Of a DNA stretch of 64,000 nucleotides, positions 17,184 through 51,391 are shown piece by piece. The position numbers and the translations under genes are program-made. The first letter of the stretch is position 1. The number at the start of each line of letters is the position of its first letter. The notes below the pieces were generated by a model. It saw nothing but the letters and a program-made list of their open reading frames with translations. It had not been told where the DNA came from and searched no databases. This stretch comes from Acidobacteriota bacterium (GTDB taxonomy: Bacteria > Acidobacteriota > Terriglobia > Terriglobales > Acidobacteriaceae), in assembly GCA_016196065.1 (NCBI GenBank), contig JACPYL010000010.1, forward strand, positions 1 to 64,000, written 5' to 3'.

Positions 17184-18254
17184 ATGGCCAACATACTGTA
17201 TGGGGTTAACGGCGAAGGGGCGGGCCATTCCACGCGCGCCAAGGAAGTCATAACTCATCTGCAACAGAAGGGACACGCTGTGCATGTCGTGTCCTTCGAT
17301 CGTGGGTTTACGAATCTGCGCCGCGACTTCGAAGTCACGGAGATCCACGGCTGGCGGCTTGCCTATGTCAACAACCAGGTCAGATACCAGCGCACCATCG
17401 CCAAGAACCTGCTGGGAGCCCGCAAAACTGCGGCCAGCATGGCACTCCTCAAGAAGCTTGGCGAAGAATGGAAAATCGACCTGGTCGTCACGGATTTTGA
17501 GCCGCTGTCCTGTCATGAGGGACGTCGCCGCCATGTACCCGTGATCTCGATCGACAATCAACACTGCATCACAAACTTCGACGTTGCCCTCCCGCGCGAG
17601 CATCGTGCCGACGCTGCGGCAACGAAGATGGTCGTTCGCATGATGGTTCCGCGCGCGGTTGCTTACCTGGTGACGTCATTTTTTACTGTCAGGGCGAAGC
17701 GGCGAAATACTTTCCTGTTTCCCCCGATCCTGCGCGAGAGCGTGCTGCAAGCGAAGCCCACTGCTGGTGAGCAGGTACTGGTGTATGTGACTTCTCCCGC
17801 GCCCGCGCTGGCGAAGATACTGGCGGGAGTTCGGTGCCGGTTCGTGGCGTACGGTTTTGGAAAAGAATGGCAGGAAGGAAATGTTTTATACAAAAAGCCG
17901 AGCGTCGATGGATTCACGCAGGACCTGATCAACGCGAAGGCCGTCGTCGCCAATGCCGGATTCTCCCTGGTTACAGAGGCTCTTCACCTCGGTAAACCGT
18001 ACCTCGCGATTCCGGTCGAGCACCAGTTTGAGCAGGTCTTCAATGCGTACTGGCTCGAAAAGGCGGGCTACGGCGCGTTTTGGGAGGAGTTAAATCGGGA
18101 GCGAGTGGAAGCCTTCCTCTACAATTTGCCGCACTACCGGGAAAATCTCACGAGCTATCCGCGGCAAGGGAATCAGGCGCTGCTGGCGAAGCTCGACACG
18201 CTGATCGCGGAGTATTCTGTGTCCCGTCCTGGCGGAGGGCGGCAAAAGAAATGA
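17184..18254 (+). CDS. Glycosyltransferase of the GT-B fold (MJ1255-like family)
   Basis: 356 residues from ATG 17184. The N-terminus ILYGVNGEGAGHSTRAKEV is the glycine-rich loop of MurG/GT28-like transferases, with the GEGAGHSTR signature of the MJ1255/VC2487 group. The C-terminal half has the nucleotide-sugar binding region ANAGFSLVTEALHLGKPYLA and the following PVEHQFEQVFNAYWLEK. It is probably cytoplasmic and transfers a sugar from a nucleotide donor to a lipid or glycan. Its stop overlaps the start of the PAP2-hydrolase fusion gene (ATGA), so the two products are likely made together, which points to lipid-linked glycan work. Confidence 0.75.
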   Translation: MANILYGVNGEGAGHSTRAKEVITHLQQKGHAVHVVSFDRGFTNLRRDFEVTEIHGWRLAYVNNQVRYQRTIAKNLLGARKTAASMALLKKLGEEWKIDLVVTDFEPLSCHEGRRRHVPVISIDNQHCITNFDVALPREHRADAAATKMVVRMMVPRAVAYLVTSFFTVRAKRRNTFLFPPILRESVLQAKPTAGEQVLVYVTSPAPALAKILAGVRCRFVAYGFGKEWQEGNVLYKKPSVDGFTQDLINAKAVVANAGFSLVTEALHLGKPYLAIPVEHQFEQVFNAYWLEKAGYGAFWEELNRERVEAFLYNLPHYRENLTSYPRQGNQALLAKLDTLIAEYSVSRPGGGRQKK

Positions 18255-39241: not shown

Positions 39242-40600
39242 ATGACGAACAAAGATTCTCTATCACGCCGCAAGTTCCTAGGACTTAGTGCCGCAGCCGC
39301 GGGTGTCTCGCTGGCTGCGAACGCGATCCTGCTTGAACCCGAACCTCTTTTCGCATCCACTCGTGCTGTTGCTGCCAGTGATCGGCTGCGCTTTGGAATC
39401 ATCGGCATCGGCATGCAGGGATGCGGCCTGCTCGCCCAGTCCATTGAATTGCCCGGAATCGAGTGCGTGCGCGCCTGCGATCTTTACGATGGGCGCCACA
39501 CATTAGCTCGCGAAATCACCGGCAAAGCCGATTTGCCGGCAACACGCCACTATCACGAACTGCTCGAAGACAAGAACATCGACTGCATCGTAGCTGCCGT
39601 TCCGGATCACTGGCACAAGCAAGTTGTGATCGACACTGTCTCTGCGGGAAAAGACATTTACTGCGAGAAGCCGATGTCGCACACCGCCGCCGAAGGCGTT
39701 GATATGGCGGAGGCCGCGAAGAAAAACAATCGCATCGTGCAGATTGGCTCGCAACGCGTCAGTTCGCTGATCTGCAAAAAGGCCAAGGAGATTGTCGATC
39801 AGGGCATGCTCGGCGACCTGATGATGGTCGAAGGTTGGCTCGGCCGCAACGATCCGACCGGCGCATGGGAATATCCGCCGCCCATGGATCTTTCACCGCA
39901 AAACCTGGACTGGGATACCTGGCAAGGCACGGTTCCAAAGCGGGCGTTCAATCCTGAAATCTTCGCGCGCTGGCGCTGCTGGAAAGAGTACGGAACCGGC
40001 GTCGCAGGCGATCTGCTCGTTCATCTGGTCAGCGGCATGATGTTCGTTCTCAACTGGAACAAGGCGCCGGAACGCGCGATGGCGATGGGTGGAATACTGC
40101 GCTGGAAAGACGGTCGCAATATGCCTGACGTCCATGCCAGCCTCTACCAGTACGGCGAAATTCCCGTCTACATGCGCTTGAGCCTGGGCACGGAAATGCC
40201 CGAGACCTACCGCTTCCAGGGTTCGAAAGGCATTCTGGAGATGGGCGAGTTCGGTCTCAGCTTTACTCCGCAAGCCGGCATCGACACCGCTCCCAGCTAC
40301 TACGCTGGCGGCTTCCCGCATGCGATGCGCGATGCGTACGAGAAGAAGTGGCGCGCGGAGAACACTCCGAAACTCGGCCACGAACCGATGCCAGAGACGA
40401 TCACCTACAAAGGACCAGACTACGACGACATGCACCCGCACCTTTGGAACTTCTTCGAAGCCGTGCGTTCCCGCAAGCCGGTCGTTGAAGATGCAGTCTT
40501 CGGTCATCACGCTGCTCTCGCCTGCCACATGGCTAACGAATCGTATATTCGTAAACAGGCCGTGACCTGGGACGAAGCCAGCAGAACGATAAAAGGCTAA
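39242..40600 (+). CDS. Tat-exported Gfo/Idh/MocA family oxidoreductase
   Basis: 452 residues from ATG 39242 behind AGGAGG. Twin-arginine leader SRRKFLGLSAAAAGVSLAA. The Rossmann domain starts at ~40 with FGIIGIGMQGCG, and the family motif YCEKPMSHT supplies the catalytic Lys. The C-terminal half has the barrel-like sheet with GDLLVHLVSGMMFVLNW. Members oxidise or reduce sugars with tightly bound NAD(P); export with cofactor through Tat is known for this class. With DUF1080 upstream it fits keto-sugar conversion in the periplasm. Confidence 0.85.
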   Translation: MTNKDSLSRRKFLGLSAAAAGVSLAANAILLEPEPLFASTRAVAASDRLRFGIIGIGMQGCGLLAQSIELPGIECVRACDLYDGRHTLAREITGKADLPATRHYHELLEDKNIDCIVAAVPDHWHKQVVIDTVSAGKDIYCEKPMSHTAAEGVDMAEAAKKNNRIVQIGSQRVSSLICKKAKEIVDQGMLGDLMMVEGWLGRNDPTGAWEYPPPMDLSPQNLDWDTWQGTVPKRAFNPEIFARWRCWKEYGTGVAGDLLVHLVSGMMFVLNWNKAPERAMAMGGILRWKDGRNMPDVHASLYQYGEIPVYMRLSLGTEMPETYRFQGSKGILEMGEFGLSFTPQAGIDTAPSYYAGGFPHAMRDAYEKKWRAENTPKLGHEPMPETITYKGPDYDDMHPHLWNFFEAVRSRKPVVEDAVFGHHAALACHMANESYIRKQAVTWDEASRTIKG

Positions 40601-45114: not shown

Positions 45115-45189
45115 TGGTAGCGCTACCGGGAATCGAACCCGGGTTTGAAGATTGAGAATCTTCCGTCCTAACCCCTAGACGATAGCGCC
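45115..45189 (-). tRNA. tRNA-Glu (anticodon CTC)
   Basis: On the minus strand the acceptor arms GGCGCTA and TAGCGCT pair perfectly. The anticodon stem GAAGA/TCTTC encloses loop TTCTCAA with anticodon CTC, the T arm reads CCGGGTTCGATTCCCGG, and the 3' CCA is encoded. It decodes GAG. It lies between the PQQ gene and imuA. Confidence 0.95.
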
Positions 45190-45450: not shown

Positions 45451-46368
45451 ATGTCTGCTTCTCCGGTGTTTTCATCGGCGGCGATGAGCCGCCCTTTTAT
45501 TTTTCCGGCTCGTTCGAGCGCAGCGCTCCTGACAAAGCTGGAAGCGCTCCCCCGATTCGCAAATGCCATCACGCCGGCTTCGCGTCTGCATGTGCGTCCG
45601 GCGCCCGAGATGGTTTCCTGCGGGATTCGGGAACTGGATGCGTTGACCGGCGGCTTTCCGCGCGGTTGTCTGACGGAAATCTATGGACCAGCTTCTTCTG
45701 GCCGAACCAGCGTGCTCTTCGCTGCGCTCGCTTGTGCCACCCGGCGTGGAGAAGTCTGTGCGCTGGTGGATGCCAGCGATGCCATGAATCCAGCTTCGGC
45801 TGCAGCCGCCGGGGTGGCGATGGAACGGTTGCTCTGGGTGCGATGCAGGAAAACAGTTCCCAGTTTTCAGTTTCCAGTTGCTGGTTCGCTGCGGGATCGC
45901 AAATCCAAGACTTCCAATTCAGGTTTCAACAACCATCGGCGGGAGTGGGAATCTTCGTTGGAGCAGGTTCTGAAAGTGACCGACCTGCTTCTGCAAAGCA
46001 ATGGATTCGGAATGATCGTACTTGATCTTTCGGATGTTCCGGCACACAGCGCGCGTCGAATCCCGCTTGCATCCTGGTTCCGTTATCGCCGAGCCGTCGA
46101 GCACACACCGACCGTGTTTCTCATCATGGAACAGCAGCCAATCGCCGGCAGCTGTTCGTCAATATTAATGAAGGTGACAGGCCGTAGATCACAGATCACT
46201 GGGAAGAAGCACGCAGCATTCTGCACGCCGCATATAGCGGGCCGACTGTCACATACCGAATTGCTCGACGAATTCGAAATCAATGCTGAACTCCTTCGTT
46301 CGCGCTTGGAACGCAAGCAGCCCAAATCCGTAATGAACTTTACAACCCGAGCCGCCTGGTCAGGTTAA
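45451..46368 (+). CDS. imuA: ImuA-like RecA-related protein of the mutagenesis cassette
   Basis: 305 residues from ATG 45451 (GAGG upstream). A RecA-like core: SCGIRELDALTGGFPRGCLT, then the P-loop GPASSGRTS (79-87), where RecA has Lys and this has Arg85, and the Walker-B-like GFGMIVLDLSDVP. The end, ELLRSRLERKQPKS, is typical of ImuA. Two stretches coincide with tandem 7-bp repeats (45854-45881 and 46172-46199) and encode residues not expected in the family. ImuA supports ImuB and DnaE2 in SOS translesion synthesis. It is first in the imuA-imuB-dnaE2 order. Confidence 0.82.
   Translation: MSASPVFSSAAMSRPFIFPARSSAALLTKLEALPRFANAITPASRLHVRPAPEMVSCGIRELDALTGGFPRGCLTEIYGPASSGRTSVLFAALACATRRGEVCALVDASDAMNPASAAAAGVAMERLLWVRCRKTVPSFQFPVAGSLRDRKSKTSNSGFNNHRREWESSLEQVLKVTDLLLQSNGFGMIVLDLSDVPAHSARRIPLASWFRYRRAVEHTPTVFLIMEQQPIAGSCSSILMKVTGRRSQITGKKHAAFCTPHIAGRLSHTELLDEFEINAELLRSRLERKQPKSVMNFTTRAAWSG
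45854..45881. repeat. Tandem heptamer (CAGTTNN) x4 inside imuA
   Basis: CAGTTCC, CAGTTTT, CAGTTTC and CAGTTGC follow each other without gaps (period exactly 7). The block is translated within imuA and, with the next ~60 bases, encodes a Ser/Lys/Asn-rich stretch that looks inserted between the WVRC and LKVTDLLLQ segments. Confidence 0.7.
46172..46199. repeat. Tandem heptamer x4 inside imuA (AGRTSAC type)
   Basis: AGGTGAC, AGGCCGT, AGATCAC and AGATCAC form four consecutive 7-base units near the 3' end of imuA, encoding KVTGRRSQIT. The sequence differs from the other blocks, but the period is the same. Confidence 0.55.
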
Positions 46369-46378
46369 AAGGATTAGT

Positions 46379-46434
46379 TAAAAGCTAAAAGCTAAAAGCT
46401 CTGCCTGACACCCGTGACCTAAGACCTGTGACCT
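46379..46434. repeat. Two tandem heptamer blocks filling the imuA-imuB spacer
   Basis: TAAAAGC x3 (46379-46399) and, after 14 bases, GTGACCT, AAGACCT, GTGACCT (46414-46434). Together they occupy most of the 71-bp spacer and end 5 bp before the ATG of imuB, leaving no ordinary Shine-Dalgarno sequence. Confidence 0.7.
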
Positions 46435-46439
46435 GCTCC

Positions 46440-48056
46440 ATGTTTGCCTGCCTCTTCATTCCGAATTTTCCCGCCGAAGCACTGATTCGCTCCGAACCAG
46501 AGCTTCGTGGAAAGCCCGTAGTCGTACTCGCCGGGTGGGCGCCACTCGAGAAAGTTGTGGCTCTGAACGAGAAAGCCCGTCAGTTGGACGTCGAAACCGG
46601 CGCTACAAAATCGCAGTTAGAAGCGTGGGAGAACCTCATGTTCCGCTCGCGTTCGGAACTGCAGGAAACATCCGCGCACGCCGCCTTGCTCGATTGTGCG
46701 CAGTCATTTTCCCCAGAAGTAGAAGATACCGCGCCCGACACCATACTTCTGAACCTTGCGGGACTGGAGCCGTTGTTCGGATCTTTGCCGAAAATTGCCT
46801 GTGAGTTGGCGCGTCGCAGTTCTTCCATGGGGCTGGAAGCAAATGTTGCTGTGGCCGCCAATCCCGATGCCGCCGTGCTGGCGGCCCGCGGTTTTCCTGG
46901 CGTGACGTTGATTCCGCAAGGACGCGAAGCAGAGCGTCTCGGTGAGTTGCCGGTCGATGTGCTCCTGGAAAGTTTTTCTTCCGACGCAAACGAGGCCGCG
47001 CGCTGGCTGGAGACGTTTGATCGCTGGGGCGTCCGCAATCTGCGTGCTCTCTCGGCTCTTCCCGAAGTGCCCGTCGCCGAACGGCTTGGACAACAGGGCA
47101 TCCGTCTGTTGAAACTGGCGCGGGGCAGCGCTTCCCGCAATCTTTGCCTGTTTGAATGCGTACCTGTATTTCAAGAGGACATCGAACTCGAACATCCGAT
47201 TGTGCTGCTTGAACCACTGGCATTTCTGTTGAATCGCATGCTGGAGCAGTTGTGTGCCCGTCTGGATGCGCGCGCGCTGGCCGTGCAGGAAATTCAGTTG
47301 CAATTGGAACTCGTGGACAAGGCAGAAGATTGCGATCCCGAAAACACCTCGACATTCACGCGCACTTTGCGTCTGCCTGTCCCGATGCTGGATGCGAAAG
47401 TGTTTCTCAAGCTCTTGCAACTGGACTTGCAATCGCACCCGCCGGGTGCGCCGATCCTGAAAATCCATCTCGCCGCCGAGCCTGCCCGTCCACGGCCGGC
47501 GCAGAGTGGACTGTTTCTTCCCGTATTTCCTGAGCCAGAAAAATTAGAACTGACACTGGCTCGCATTGCCGGGATCGTCGGGCAGGGAAGAGTAGGTGCA
47601 GCCGAATTACTGGACACGCATCGCGACGGGGCCTTTCAGATACAGCCCTTTGCTCCGGCTCAACCTGAAATCAGGAAATCGTCGAACAAAAAGAAGAAAG
47701 AAATGTTCATGCAAGAAAATGACGGCATTCGCCTCGAAGAGAGCAAGCAGGAAAACGCGCAGGAAAAAATGAGTGCTGTGATTGCCTTGCGCTTATTTCG
47801 TCCACCGCTGCGCGCCATCGTAAATGTGAGAAACGGCACGCCAATGCGCCTGAAATGCCTTCCTCCCCATGAAATCGCGGGTGAAATCGTCTGGACGGCC
47901 GGTCCCTGGCGCTCTTCCGGCGACTGGTATGAACAGGAAGGATGGTCCCGCGAAGAATGGGACATCGCCGTCCCCGCAGAAAACGAAATCATCCTGTACC
48001 GCTTGGTCGAAGACAAGTTGTCGCGGAACTGGTGGCTGGAAGGAATGTATGACTAA
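46440..48056 (+). CDS. imuB: ImuB-like Y-family polymerase homologue
   Basis: 538 residues from ATG 46440; an upstream GTG (46428) falls inside a repeat. N-terminus FACLFIPNFPAEALIRSEP lacks the acidic residue that Y-family polymerases use for catalysis, as in known ImuB proteins. Later parts match the family: DTILLNLAGLEPLFGS, VAVAANPDAAVLAARGF, LETFDRWGVRNLRALSALPE, and the C-terminal end GDWYEQEGWSREEWDIAV with WWLEGMYD. A Lys/Glu-rich stretch of ~35 residues near 420-455 looks inserted. It should bridge DnaE2 to the sliding clamp rather than polymerise. A clamp-binding peptide could not be placed with certainty. Confidence 0.85.
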   Translation: MFACLFIPNFPAEALIRSEPELRGKPVVVLAGWAPLEKVVALNEKARQLDVETGATKSQLEAWENLMFRSRSELQETSAHAALLDCAQSFSPEVEDTAPDTILLNLAGLEPLFGSLPKIACELARRSSSMGLEANVAVAANPDAAVLAARGFPGVTLIPQGREAERLGELPVDVLLESFSSDANEAARWLETFDRWGVRNLRALSALPEVPVAERLGQQGIRLLKLARGSASRNLCLFECVPVFQEDIELEHPIVLLEPLAFLLNRMLEQLCARLDARALAVQEIQLQLELVDKAEDCDPENTSTFTRTLRLPVPMLDAKVFLKLLQLDLQSHPPGAPILKIHLAAEPARPRPAQSGLFLPVFPEPEKLELTLARIAGIVGQGRVGAAELLDTHRDGAFQIQPFAPAQPEIRKSSNKKKKEMFMQENDGIRLEESKQENAQEKMSAVIALRLFRPPLRAIVNVRNGTPMRLKCLPPHEIAGEIVWTAGPWRSSGDWYEQEGWSREEWDIAVPAENEIILYRLVEDKLSRNWWLEGMYD

Positions 48057-48065
48057 GGCGGTCAC

Positions 48066-48136
48066 TAGTTTCTGGTTTCTAGTTGCCAGTCGCCGGAAGT
48101 TTACAGACTGGAAACCAGCAACTGGCAACTAGCAAC
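48066..48136. repeat. Inverted heptamer array forming the imuB-dnaE2 spacer
   Basis: Left arm: TAGTTTC, TGGTTTC, TAGTTGC, CAGTCGC (48066-48093). A 15-base centre follows. Right arm: TGGAAAC, CAGCAAC, TGGCAAC, TAGCAAC (48109-48136). The arms are partly complementary (11-base match TAGTTGCCAGT). The array fills almost the whole 86-bp gap and ends 6 bp before the GTG start of dnaE2. Confidence 0.75.
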
Positions 48137-48142
48137 AGGTTT

Positions 48143-51100
48143 GTGTACATTGAACTCCATTCCCGTTCCGCGTTCAGCTTTCTTGAAGGTGCCTCCGCTC
48201 CCGAGTCGCTGATGGAAGCCTGTTCTCGGCTGGGTATGCCGGCCATGGGCCTGCTGGATCGCGATGGAGTCTACGGCTCGCCGCGTTTTCATCTGGCCGC
48301 CCAGAAAGCAGGCATCAAAGCACACATCGGCGCGGAGGTGACATGGAATTCGTTTTCACCACACCCTGTCCTGAACGAAGCCGACGGACGTCTCCGTGGC
48401 GAATCCCGCCTTCCGTTGCTCGTAACATCTCGAGCCGGATATCAAAATCTCTGCCGACTCATCACTCGCATGAAGTTACGTGTCGGGCGAAAAGAAGGCG
48501 CCTGCGCCGACAGACTGGACCTCGCCGAGCACGCCGGTGGATTGATCTGCTTGACCGGCGGCGAGGAAGGTCCGCTCGCGGCAGCGTTACAACAAGGCCC
48601 ACAGGCAGCATTGGAAATCGTTCAGCGGCTGGCAGAATTATTCGGCCAGAAAAATGTCTATGTCGAACTCCAGCGCCACGCTCATCGAGAGGAAGAATCT
48701 CGCAACCGCGTTGCCGTTCAAATCGCCCGGCAGTTGAATCTCCCGCTGCTCGCCACCAACGGTGTGAATTATGCCATCCCGCGCGCGCGCGAACTCGCCG
48801 ACGCTTTTACCGCGCTCCGCCATCACCGCACGCTCGCCACCGCTGGACGCCTGCTCGCGCGAAATTCCGAACGTCACCTGAAGTCGCCGGCTGAAATGCA
48901 GGCTCTCTTTTCCGATTTCCCGGAGGCCATCGCCAACACGCAGGAGCTTTCCGAGCGTCTGGAGTTCACGCTCAACGATTTGGGATACGAATTCCCGCGT
49001 TATCCCGTCCCTGAAGGCGAGACGATGATGTCGTTTCTTCGCGAGCGCACTCGCGAAGGATTTCAGAGCCGGTACGGCCGCGCCACTCCCGACCTGAAAG
49101 CGCGCGCCCGACGCCAGATTGAGCGCGAACTTGCGTTAATGGAAAAACTTCATCTCGAAGGATATTTCCTGATCGTCTGGGACCTGATCCGCTTCTGCTG
49201 TCAGGAAAATATTCTCGTGCAGGGCCGCGGATCGGCCGCCAATAGCGCCGTCTGCTACTCGCTCGGCATTACTGCAGTCGATCCCATAGCGATGGAATTA
49301 TTGTTTGAGCGCTTTCTTTCGGAAGAGCGCGGCGAGTGGCCCGACATCGATCTCGATCTACCCAGCGGTGACGAACGTGAGCGCGTTATCCAATATCTTT
49401 ATCAACGTTACGGCCAGCGCGGCGCCGCCATGACCGCCAATGTCATTACCTATCGCAACCGCATGGCCGCACGCGAAATGGGCAAAGCGCTTGGCTTCGA
49501 CGCCGACACGTTGAAGCGAATCTCCTCCGCGGTTGCTACCTGGGAGTTTCGCGACGAGCACGATGCCCTCGACCGCCGTCTCTGCGATGCCGGGCTCGAT
49601 CTCAAGCATCCGCGCATCCGAAAATATTTCGAGTTGTGCCTCGCCGTGCAGGATCTCCCGCGCCACCTGGGACAGCATTCCGGCGGCATGGTCATCTGCC
49701 AGGGCCGCCTCGATTCCGTCGTTCCGCTGGAGCCTGCCTCCATGCCCAATCGCGTGGTTGTGCAATGGGACAAAGAAGATTGCGCCGACCTCGGTATCAT
49801 CAAAGTCGATCTCCTCGGCCTCGGCATGATGGCCGTATTGAAGGACTCGATCGAACTCATCCGCCATCACAATAAAGAGGAAGTAGATCTGGCACATCTT
49901 CCGCCTGACGATCCCGCGGTCTATTCCACGCTACAAAAAGCCGATACGGTAGGAATGTTTCAAGTAGAAAGCCGGGCGCAGATGTCCTGCCTGCCGCGCT
50001 TGCGTCCGCAGCGGTTTTACGACATTGTCGTGCAGGTCGCGATCATTCGGCCCGGACCGATCGTGGGCAACATGGTCAACCCGTTTCTCAAGCGGCGTCA
50101 GGGCAGGGAAGCCGTCACCTATCCACACCCATCGCTCGAAAATGTATTGAGCCGCACTCTCGGGGTGCCGCTGTTTCAGGAGCAGTTGCTGCGCATGGCC
50201 ATGATCACCGCAAACTTCACCGGGGGCGAAGCCGAAGAACTGCGCCGTGCCATGGGCTTCAAACGCTCGGAAGCGCGCATGAAGACCATCGAAGAAAAAC
50301 TCCGGGCCGGCATGACGCAAAACGGAATCCGTGGGGAAACGCAGGAACAGATCATCCAGTCCATCACGTCATTCGCGCTCTATGGATTCCCCGAATCGCA
50401 CGCCGCCAGCTTTGCCCTGATCGCCTACGCCAGCGCCTACTTGAAGTGTCACTACCTTGCCGCCTTTACAGCCGCTTTGCTGAACAATCAACCCATGGGT
50501 TTTTATTCTCCCGCCACGATCGTAAAAGACGCGCAGCGCCATGGACTCAAAATGCTGCCGATCGACGTGACACGATCGGACTGGAAATGCACGCTGGAGC
50601 ATGCAGCACTCAGCACTCAGCAATCCGTCCGTCTGGGGTTGAATTATGCTCGTGGCCTGCGCGAGCCTGCGGGCCAGGCGCTAGTCCGGGAACGCAGCCT
50701 GCAACCGTTCGCTTCGATTCATGACCTCGCCTGTCGCGTTCCGGAATTGCGCCGCGCCGAATTAACCACGCTGGCGGAAATCGGCGCGCTGAATTCAGTG
50801 GCCGGTGGTCAGTGGTCAGTGGTTAGATCAAAACTTACCGCTAACCACCAACCACTAACCACTGGTTCTTTTCATCGCCGCGACGCGCTCTGGCAAGTCG
50901 AACGTGCCGTCCGCTGGTCGGGACCTTTGCTCGATGAACTCCCCGAATCTGATGCGCACTCTCCGCTTCAGATCATGAACCAAGAAGAGCGTTTAGTCGC
51001 AGATTTCAACGGGACTGGCCTGACTATCGGCCCGCATCCCATGCAATACCGCCGTGCCGAGATGAAGAAACTTGGAATTTATCGTGCCTCCGACCTCGCG

Positions 51101-51391
51101 CAGATCCCCAATGGACGCCGCTTGCGTGTAGGAGGCTGTGTCATCGCTCGCCAGCGTCCCGGCACCGCCAAAGGAATGATGTTCATGAGCCTGGAGGACG
51201 AGACTGGAATTGCCAACGCAATTATCGCTCCCGACCTGCTGCAAAAAAATCGCGTCCTACTAATTTCCGAACGCTTCCTGATGATCGAGGGAATATTGCA
51301 GAACCAGGACAACGTGATTCATATCAAGGCGGAAAAAGTGGCGTCTTTGAGCGTCACGCAAGCCGAAACCGCGTCCCACGATTTTCATTAG
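48143..51391 (+). CDS. dnaE2: Error-prone DNA polymerase DnaE2
   Basis: 1082 residues. The GTG at 48143 gives the family N-terminus YIELHSRSAFSFLEGASAPE; earlier in-frame codons lie in the repeat array. PHP domain at 1-260, polymerase core with the acidic site PDIDLDLPSG (Asp401, Asp403) and KVDLLGLGMMAVL, and a C-terminal OB-type part (LRVGGCVIARQRPGTAKGMM). It performs error-prone translesion synthesis with ImuA and ImuB, usually under SOS control. Two repeat blocks are translated within it: HAALSTQQS at 50604-50624, and ~23 residues (VAGGQWSVVRSKLTANH region) at 50796-50865, where relatives run straight into HRRDALWQVE. Its stop overlaps phoU tail to tail. Confidence 0.92.
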   Translation: MYIELHSRSAFSFLEGASAPESLMEACSRLGMPAMGLLDRDGVYGSPRFHLAAQKAGIKAHIGAEVTWNSFSPHPVLNEADGRLRGESRLPLLVTSRAGYQNLCRLITRMKLRVGRKEGACADRLDLAEHAGGLICLTGGEEGPLAAALQQGPQAALEIVQRLAELFGQKNVYVELQRHAHREEESRNRVAVQIARQLNLPLLATNGVNYAIPRARELADAFTALRHHRTLATAGRLLARNSERHLKSPAEMQALFSDFPEAIANTQELSERLEFTLNDLGYEFPRYPVPEGETMMSFLRERTREGFQSRYGRATPDLKARARRQIERELALMEKLHLEGYFLIVWDLIRFCCQENILVQGRGSAANSAVCYSLGITAVDPIAMELLFERFLSEERGEWPDIDLDLPSGDERERVIQYLYQRYGQRGAAMTANVITYRNRMAAREMGKALGFDADTLKRISSAVATWEFRDEHDALDRRLCDAGLDLKHPRIRKYFELCLAVQDLPRHLGQHSGGMVICQGRLDSVVPLEPASMPNRVVVQWDKEDCADLGIIKVDLLGLGMMAVLKDSIELIRHHNKEEVDLAHLPPDDPAVYSTLQKADTVGMFQVESRAQMSCLPRLRPQRFYDIVVQVAIIRPGPIVGNMVNPFLKRRQGREAVTYPHPSLENVLSRTLGVPLFQEQLLRMAMITANFTGGEAEELRRAMGFKRSEARMKTIEEKLRAGMTQNGIRGETQEQIIQSITSFALYGFPESHAASFALIAYASAYLKCHYLAAFTAALLNNQPMGFYSPATIVKDAQRHGLKMLPIDVTRSDWKCTLEHAALSTQQSVRLGLNYARGLREPAGQALVRERSLQPFASIHDLACRVPELRRAELTTLAEIGALNSVAGGQWSVVRSKLTANHQPLTTGSFHRRDALWQVERAVRWSGPLLDELPESDAHSPLQIMNQEERLVADFNGTGLTIGPHPMQYRRAEMKKLGIYRASDLAQIPNGRRLRVGGCVIARQRPGTAKGMMFMSLEDETGIANAIIAPDLLQKNRVLLISERFLMIEGILQNQDNVIHIKAEKVASLSVTQAETASHDFH
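50604..50624. repeat. Tandem heptamer (CAGCACT) x3 inside dnaE2
   Basis: CAGCACT, CAGCACT, CAGCAAT are read in frame within dnaE2. Three units make 21 bases, so the frame is kept; a gain or loss of one unit would break it. Confidence 0.75.
50796..50865. repeat. Inverted heptamer array of ten units inside dnaE2
   Basis: CAGTGGC, CGGTGGT, CAGTGGT, CAGTGGT, TAGATCA, AAACTTA, CCGCTAA, CCACCAA, CCACTAA, CCACTGG: seventy bases in strict period 7, with the right half complementary to the left (GTGGTTAG/CTAACCAC). It is translated and would fold into a long mRNA stem. Confidence 0.8.

Follow-up and report, generated by a model that had tools for sequence, protein, structure and literature searches.

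Period-7 repeat blocks in the imuA-imuB-dnaE2 operon of an Acidobacteriota bacterium and a genome-wide set of heptad arms with changing units

In cyanobacteria, short tandemly repeated repetitive sequences (STRRs) are heptanucleotide tandem repeats, and work by Mrazek and colleagues from 2007 on heptanucleotide long simple sequence repeats (LSSRs) reportedly found seven to be the dominant unit length and put forward polymerase slippage. We know of no hairpin architecture or turnover of units in either class. Here we analyse the imuA-imuB-dnaE2 operon of a soil bacterium of the Acidobacteriota (family Acidobacteriaceae, assembly GCA_016196065.1), which lies in a window of 64,000 nucleotides (the whole stretch analysed, contig C10:1-64000; the genome has 5.53 Mb in 29 contigs) and carries blocks of tandem 7-nt units, referred to below as heptads. 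The first-pass annotation of this DNA had noted, correctly, that heptamer tandem repeats of this general kind are reported from cyanobacteria, and here too 7-nt tandem arrays occur beyond chance, with 61 blocks in a 1.264-Mb sample (about 23%) of the window's own genome, from which all genome-wide block counts below are taken. What is described for LSSRs and STRRs, however, are general tandem-array statistics, whereas the arrays studied here show a hairpin architecture and a turnover of units. We favour the reading that a lineage-specific, genome-wide set of heptad arms has its local representatives in the operon blocks and that such arms are turned over in place by slippage with some arm-to-arm correction; we hold this reading to be about evenly poised between right and wrong.

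The heptamers GGGAATC of Xanthomonas and GGGGA(C/T)T of Nostoc prefer four units, which has been linked to the four G-tracts of a quadruplex; they are under-represented between divergent genes and their sequence varies at shared places (PMC4692102, in the portion drawn on here). As that portion describes them, they form one G-rich, quadruplex-forming unit class, whereas our genome holds many units that are not G-rich, its arms pair mutually, and units differ at orthologous gaps over 17 genomes. The common frame of our 345 arrays, YRGYYSY, has no G-tract, and the recurrence in the relatives studied here of a preference for about four units without G-tracts hints at a cause broader than the quadruplex. 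TAACTGA repeats, known from Beggiatoaceae and some Cyanobacteria and Bacteroidetes, resemble ours in having a 7-nt unit and in lying between genes, near start codons and also in ribosomal operons; on the opposite strand TAACTGA reads CAGTTAT, one base off the unit CAGTTCT found here. In contrast to our elements they are, in the available part of the account, a single unit in direct repeats (one indirect) without hairpin arms (PMC4679880), and the same source, citing Mrazek 2007, notes that 7-nt units are abundant and that slippage was proposed. Repetitive extragenic palindromes (REPs) and other intercistronic palindromes are likewise extragenic, intercistronic, hairpin-forming and present in many copies per genome; as far as the excerpted descriptions go, they consist of a conserved palindrome with tags (PMC3733652, PMC12306157), whereas we find tandem heptads of changing sequence, with 34 distinct units among 75 blocks. 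Searches of openly licensed papers on heptameric or 7-bp repeats, both in general and in Acidobacteria, Koribacter or Acidobacteriota, yielded no account of such hairpins. The best reading is that the heptad arms are a variety of the known heptameric intergenic repeats, retained where promoters and reading frames are unharmed.

Seven period-7 blocks had been pointed out in the operon at first pass, and all of them exist, except that the AGATCAC copies lie at 46186-46199 instead of 46172 and are weak, numbering only two. Where two blocks had been given together with their inverse, the complementary sequences are present as right arms that constitute blocks of their own (48111-48136 and 50840-50864). 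The features are listed below, the repeat blocks without strand.

45451..46368, + strand: imuA-like gene with two heptad blocks within (PF00154, RecA-fold part, E 1e-15; NF033429 ImuA 44.9 bits, under the cut-off of 150)
45854..45881: heptad block CAGTTNN, left-type arm, in the imuA coding sequence (lag-7 17/21)
46186..46199: AGATCAC, two copies only, in the imuA coding sequence
46379..46400: heptad block TAAAAGC x3 in the imuA-imuB gap (lag-7 15/15)
46410..46435: heptad block NNGACCT adjoining the imuB start (lag-7 14/19)
46440..48056, + strand: imuB (PF00817 IMS, E 4e-16)
48066..48091: hairpin left arm TAGTTTC/TAGTTGC in the imuB-dnaE2 gap (lag-7 14/19)
48111..48136: hairpin right arm GCAACTG/GCAACTA in the imuB-dnaE2 gap (lag-7 15/19)
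48143..51391, + strand: dnaE2, error-prone DNA polymerase (NF004225 1236 bits, cut-off 939)
50598..50622: single left-type arm CAGCACT in DnaE2 loop 1 (lag-7 16/18)
50796..50823: hairpin left arm CAGTGGT in DnaE2 loop 2 (lag-7 18/21)
50840..50864: hairpin right arm AACCACT in DnaE2 loop 2 (lag-7 14/18)

The window blocks are beyond chance. Six, every one inside 45854-50863, have a lag-7 score of at least 9, whereas the mean over 40 order-3 Markov sequences was 0.4 and the maximum 2; at a score of at least 11 the window keeps four blocks and the Markov sequences none. TRF added one weak period-7 row outside the operon (40322-40336, 2.1 copies). The earlier remark that the other ~58 kb hold no comparable block is therefore true of the window, but not of the genome, whose sample holds 61. 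When folded, the imuB-dnaE2 gap (z -2.79) and DnaE2 loop 2 (z -6.71) both form heptad hairpins, while the imuA-imuB gap (z -0.14), DnaE2 loop 1 (z 0.95) and the imuA block (z -0.20) form none. No Rfam family reached its gathering score in the window between 45400 and 51500. The sole tRNA of the window, tRNA-Glu (ctc), lies directly upstream of imuA at 45115-45189 (-).

The local concentration of blocks proposed at first pass is borne out by 80 imu loci, namely the 80 best DnaE2 matches among the matches listed, a set that may favour intact genes. These loci hold 68 blocks in 427 kb of operon versus 14 in 997 kb of flank, an 11-fold excess (p 4e-23; P values here and below ignore shared ancestry). 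The 17 heptad-rich loci, chosen with operon blocks counted, carry 63 operon blocks (dnaE2 itself 29, the imuA/imuB part 24, the gap preceding dnaE2 10); the figure for all 80 loci is independent of such choice. The closest DnaE2 relatives among the matches listed are Acidobacteriota, mostly metagenome assemblies. The cassette is not unique, contrary to what had been supposed. The densest 6 kb of the sample (C25:271-277 kb, seven blocks), recognised by eye, are presumably a ribosomal-protein operon, and imuA-dnaE2, with five, is the top of its 464-kb stretch; the refuting condition set at first pass thus had a mixed outcome, in that average genes fall below the density of the imu operon, another operon is as dense, and relatives differ in unit numbers and sequences. 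Of codirectional gaps 60-120 bp long, 9/20 carry a heptad in the ribosomal region and 9/119 elsewhere, and the family is also present between what we take, by eye, to be carAB-, mur- and pheST-like genes. Because they are part of a genome-wide set of repeat arms, the imu blocks are not a private mutator switch.

Throughout the genome sample it is the step of seven that stands out. At a lag score of at least 11, the 61 period-7 blocks compare with 0-3 blocks each for periods 4, 5, 8, 10, 11, 13, 16, 17, 19, 20, 22 and 23 and with 4-9 for periods 6, 9, 12, 15 and 18, periods 14 and 21 (48 and 19 blocks) being harmonics of period 7. Only period 7 and, far less, period 8 are enriched, as would be expected if the generating process were tied to a 7-nt step, an idea already put forward at first pass. 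Lowering the threshold to 10 gave the 75 blocks used for placement. These are mainly intergenic (60/75 outside coding sequence), with 53 in codirectional gaps, 15 in coding sequence, 4 in convergent and 3 in divergent gaps. Genes were called by a simple hexamer method that missed imuA, and the codirectional and coding counts of 54 and 14 were adjusted by hand to 53 and 15, the imuA block being coding. Set against summed gap lengths of 117 kb (codirectional), 33 kb (convergent) and 47 kb (divergent), blocks are in excess in codirectional gaps (p 1e-6) and in deficit in divergent ones (p 2e-4). In 200 kb of G029, from another genus, we counted 26 codirectional, 9 convergent and 2 divergent blocks, the density per kb being highest in convergent gaps (~2.0), followed by codirectional (1.1) and divergent ones (0.15). 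The 21 blocks of G037, from another family, were distributed as 10 codirectional, 6 coding, 3 convergent and 2 divergent. The constant point across the three genomes is a low block density in divergent gaps.

Heptad hairpins of the same form occur in a second genus. A pattern for the single unit AACTGAG, allowing two mismatches, found matches in 38/61 relatives and in 48/199 genomes sampled across the phylum; in most genomes the control with the reversed pattern gave zero or close to zero. G022, a member of the genus with 95% completeness, had no match to this pattern. In L065, a tRNA-guanine transglycosylase gene (PF01702) has a heptad hairpin within its coding sequence (17650-17710).

A typical full element lies between codirectional genes. 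It starts a few bases from the upstream stop with a left arm of about four heptads, continues through a spacer and finishes, a few bases from the next start, with a right arm of complementary heptads. A complementary partner within 150 bp was found for 27/75 blocks, versus 1/75 when the same blocks were placed beside random flanks, and single arms are at least as common as full hairpins. In 22 hairpins gathered under separate criteria, spacers measure 10-81 nt, A-runs lie near the left end in 12 and at the right in 2, and T-runs near the right end in 9 and at the left in 2. None of the 15 spacers of at least 20 nt had a full-length second copy in the sample, and partial matches of 15-21 nt were seen for 5/15; there is thus no shared interior of the kind expected of a miniature inverted-repeat transposable element, and copy-and-paste of whole elements was rejected. 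In relatives' two-arm gaps the right arm is purine-rich in 66/69 and the left arm pyrimidine-rich in 54/69, a trend that is weaker in the own genome (16/22 start-near, 17/30 stop-near). We gave up arm polarity as a sign of transcription coupling: left and right arms read alike on both strands in a hairpin, so polarity is a property of the element.

The blocks had been said to be united by their period and not by their sequence. This view did not hold, since the units share a degenerate consensus: the best common frame of the 345 arrays, YRGYYSY, carries 5.38 bits compared with 3.03 +- 0.11 after column permutation, and with copy number removed the 98 distinct units still carry 4.60 bits compared with 3.68 +- 0.13 (maximum 3.88 of 15 permutations). 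The two arrays of a pair have identical units in 8.6% of 140 pairs taken from one relative's locus, in 2.6% of 3158 pairs between relatives and in 5.0% of pairs inside the own genome, against 0.1% of random heptamer pairs. Arm length is narrow. In the ribosomal loci of relatives 103/188 arrays measure 28-34 nt. Arrays of 21-27 nt form the largest class in the own sample (33/75), where 5/75 reach at least 42 nt. Long arrays are exceptions, reaching ~200 nt in G037 and including one 150-nt run in L122. The former is a pure pyrimidine CCCTCTT array (L204 4564-4765; G037:C1:64565-64765) in a style unlike the hairpin arms; the unit of the latter (L122 3435-3584) drifts across several sequences without loss of the 7-nt register.

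We compared the ribosomal-protein region of 20 relatives, with orthologous gaps matched across genomes. The 17 genomes of the genus, among them the own one, gave a median gap of 79 bp over 356 gaps (a figure that excludes g26 and g27, one of which contains a small gene) and 138 gaps carry a heptad (both included). One genome from another genus of the family has a median gap of 36.5 bp and heptads in 5/24 gaps, and in three more distant genomes the gaps are short (median 16 bp) and almost free of heptads (1/71). Heptad units differ between genomes at the same orthologous gap, and some relatives lack elements that others have there; unit numbers and sequences are not identical among relatives, where identical unit numbers in all of them would have counted against the first-pass idea. 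In two-arm gaps the arms nevertheless match: 53/72 are complementary to within one base, whereas exchanging right arms at random between the genomes of each gap (2000 trials) gave a mean of 32.7 and a maximum of 42 (p=0.0005). Arms were less often complementary to the arm of another genome at the same gap (108/304), still less often to another gap of their own genome (63/326) and least often to other gaps of other genomes (615/4482). At gap g28, judged by eye, L182, L183, L187, L191, L193, L194 and L199 agree in a right arm of AACTGAG type and in much of the spacer, but their left arms are of the types CAGTTCT, CAGTTGC, CAGTTGT, CAGTACC and CAGCTAT. Folded as RNA, two-arm ribosomal gaps have a median z of -4.8 (56/63 below -2), and in 47/63 the outermost pair is no more than 20 nt away from the stop and from the start; other heptad gaps have a median z of -2.0. 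Other gaps of the genus carry other palindromes, and period 8 was seen in 21 ribosomal gaps of the genus.

Within dnaE2 the blocks fall in two loops of variable length, of which the first (loop 1) follows ...CTLE and the second (loop 2) follows ...IGALN. Loops were aligned in 53/80 relatives (frame and flank counts cover all 80), and the loop patterns were recovered in 68/110 sequences for loop 1 and 49/110 for loop 2; the loops are not all independent because L152-L180 may duplicate genomes of L071-L150. Relatives without heptads have mostly short loops, with exceptions such as L082, and those with heptads long and varied ones. Many different heptad units are found in the loops, as are the octad CACGGAGR and further dispersed repeats. 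L162 and L166 carry one and the same unit in both loops. Among the matches listed, L071, L072 and L073 are the closest named relatives (DnaE2 80-81% identical); they retain a CAGTT-class block at the same place in imuA, and L073 has GGTCACA copies at the place aligned to the AGATCAC pair. In loop 1, by comparison, the unit is CAGCACT in the window, AGCCATC in L071 and CAGTAGC in L072 and L073. CACGGAGR occurs as a period-8 inverted repeat in loop 2 of L072, L145, L158 and L160, the same permissive loop that takes up heptads, and a dispersed repeat resembling GTCATTCCGACCCCCGAGCGAACGCGAGG recurs in DnaE2 loops of several species (L081, L083, L166). Reading frames of DnaE2 are open, without internal stops, in all 80 loci, with frame-breaking length variants in 0/80, and imuA and imuB matches each lie in one frame in the 17 heptad-rich loci (imuA was not found in L076).

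In-place turnover is, we think, the most likely explanation. A changed unit would spread along its arm by replication slippage in 7-nt steps and could reach the opposite arm by template switching across the hairpin; the two processes together would change the units while place, period and pairing mostly persist. Purifying selection would clear arms from divergent promoter gaps and from most coding sequence, so that they remain in the gaps of operons and in a small number of loops. The arms of imuA-imuB-dnaE2 occupy the two gaps, imuA and two insertion-tolerant DnaE2 loops, and on this reading do not act as a mutator switch. Several points weigh against this account. No slippage or arm-copying event was observed directly, and 48/75 blocks have no strong complementary partner. 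Were slippage the only process, array lengths should show a long tail; arrays of at least 42 nt are rare in the genus (2/188), though such a tail is present in G037. At g28 the right arm stays AACTGAG while the left changes, with a complement distance of 2-3 in L183, L187, L191 and L193, which weakens strict arm-to-arm correction. Relative to shuffles, heptad-free gaps too are better folded (median z -2.44, 69/123 below -2), so pairing is not special to heptads. Neither the choice of seven nor the spread to new gaps is explained by these data.

The main rival, which may act jointly with turnover, is a functional intercistronic RNA hairpin, in which a selected stem would join stop and start (translational coupling) or shield the transcript and any hairpin-forming repeat would fit. 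The strong folding of two-arm gaps and the closeness of their outermost pair to both codons suggest such a role, as do the folding of gaps with other palindromes, the highest density in the ribosomal-protein operon and the greater frequency of complementary two-arm elements in gaps (45/138) than in DnaE2 loops (4/33; p=0.019, single uncorrected test). Relatives of the same order and class, however, do without, the same arms lie in loops of coding sequence, where no such function is possible, many gaps have one arm only, and pairing can be lost, as at g28; as the explanation of the arms we regard it as possible but rather unlikely. That some integrase inserts complete heptad hairpins at tolerant sites would account for elements present or absent at the same gap, for other dispersed repeats in the DnaE2 loops and for the excess of identical units within a genome, but the elements lack fixed ends, none of the 15 spacers has a full-length second copy in the sample, and we consider it quite unlikely. 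Nor do the two candidate enzymes examined follow the heptads, with AACTGAG, a single unit, as proxy for heptad load. On this proxy the Y1 transposase (PF01797) was set aside as writer: it occurs in 52/61 genomes, with six matches in the own genome, but not in the heptad-bearing G037 and G009 (the latter with 133 AACTGAG matches and 83% complete), and G030 and G058 have 16 and 10 matches and no AACTGAG pattern. A reverse transcriptase (RVT_1, PF00078) was rejected as well, being found in 21/61 genomes but not in five AACTGAG-rich ones (G002, 163 matches; G006, 134; G013, 125; G020, 85; G037, 88).

A new kind of process that writes complementary arms of ~30 nt in 7-nt steps, flanking intercistronic gaps, and replaces the unit as a block on both arms seems less probable again. 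The first-pass annotation had suggested a mutator contingency locus in which gain or loss of units in coding blocks toggles imuA or dnaE2, and blocks in coding sequence, a unit length that is not a multiple of three and the operon hot spot are in keeping with this. Such a role is not supported because all 80 DnaE2 frames are open, albeit among best matches that may favour intact genes; imuA and imuB are single-frame, the arrays are short and impure, the dnaE2 blocks lie in variable loops, and the same family stands between housekeeping genes, which makes a contingency locus very improbable. Chance or an assembly artefact we find scarcely credible: heptad-bearing relatives are mostly metagenome assemblies, but none of the Markov sequences reached a score of 11 and the same anatomy recurs in many separate records and a second genus.

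Across 17 genomes of one genus the unit changes, yet arms keep their place, their period, their length and, for the most part, their pairing, and the two DnaE2 loops are a coding-sequence record of the same heptad turnover. Because units turn over at orthologous gaps, the generating process can be tested with strains or reads. Seven-base units are very common among bacterial tandem repeats and, were a block-writing process at work, a large part of the operon gaps of these bacteria would hold a rewritable hairpin.

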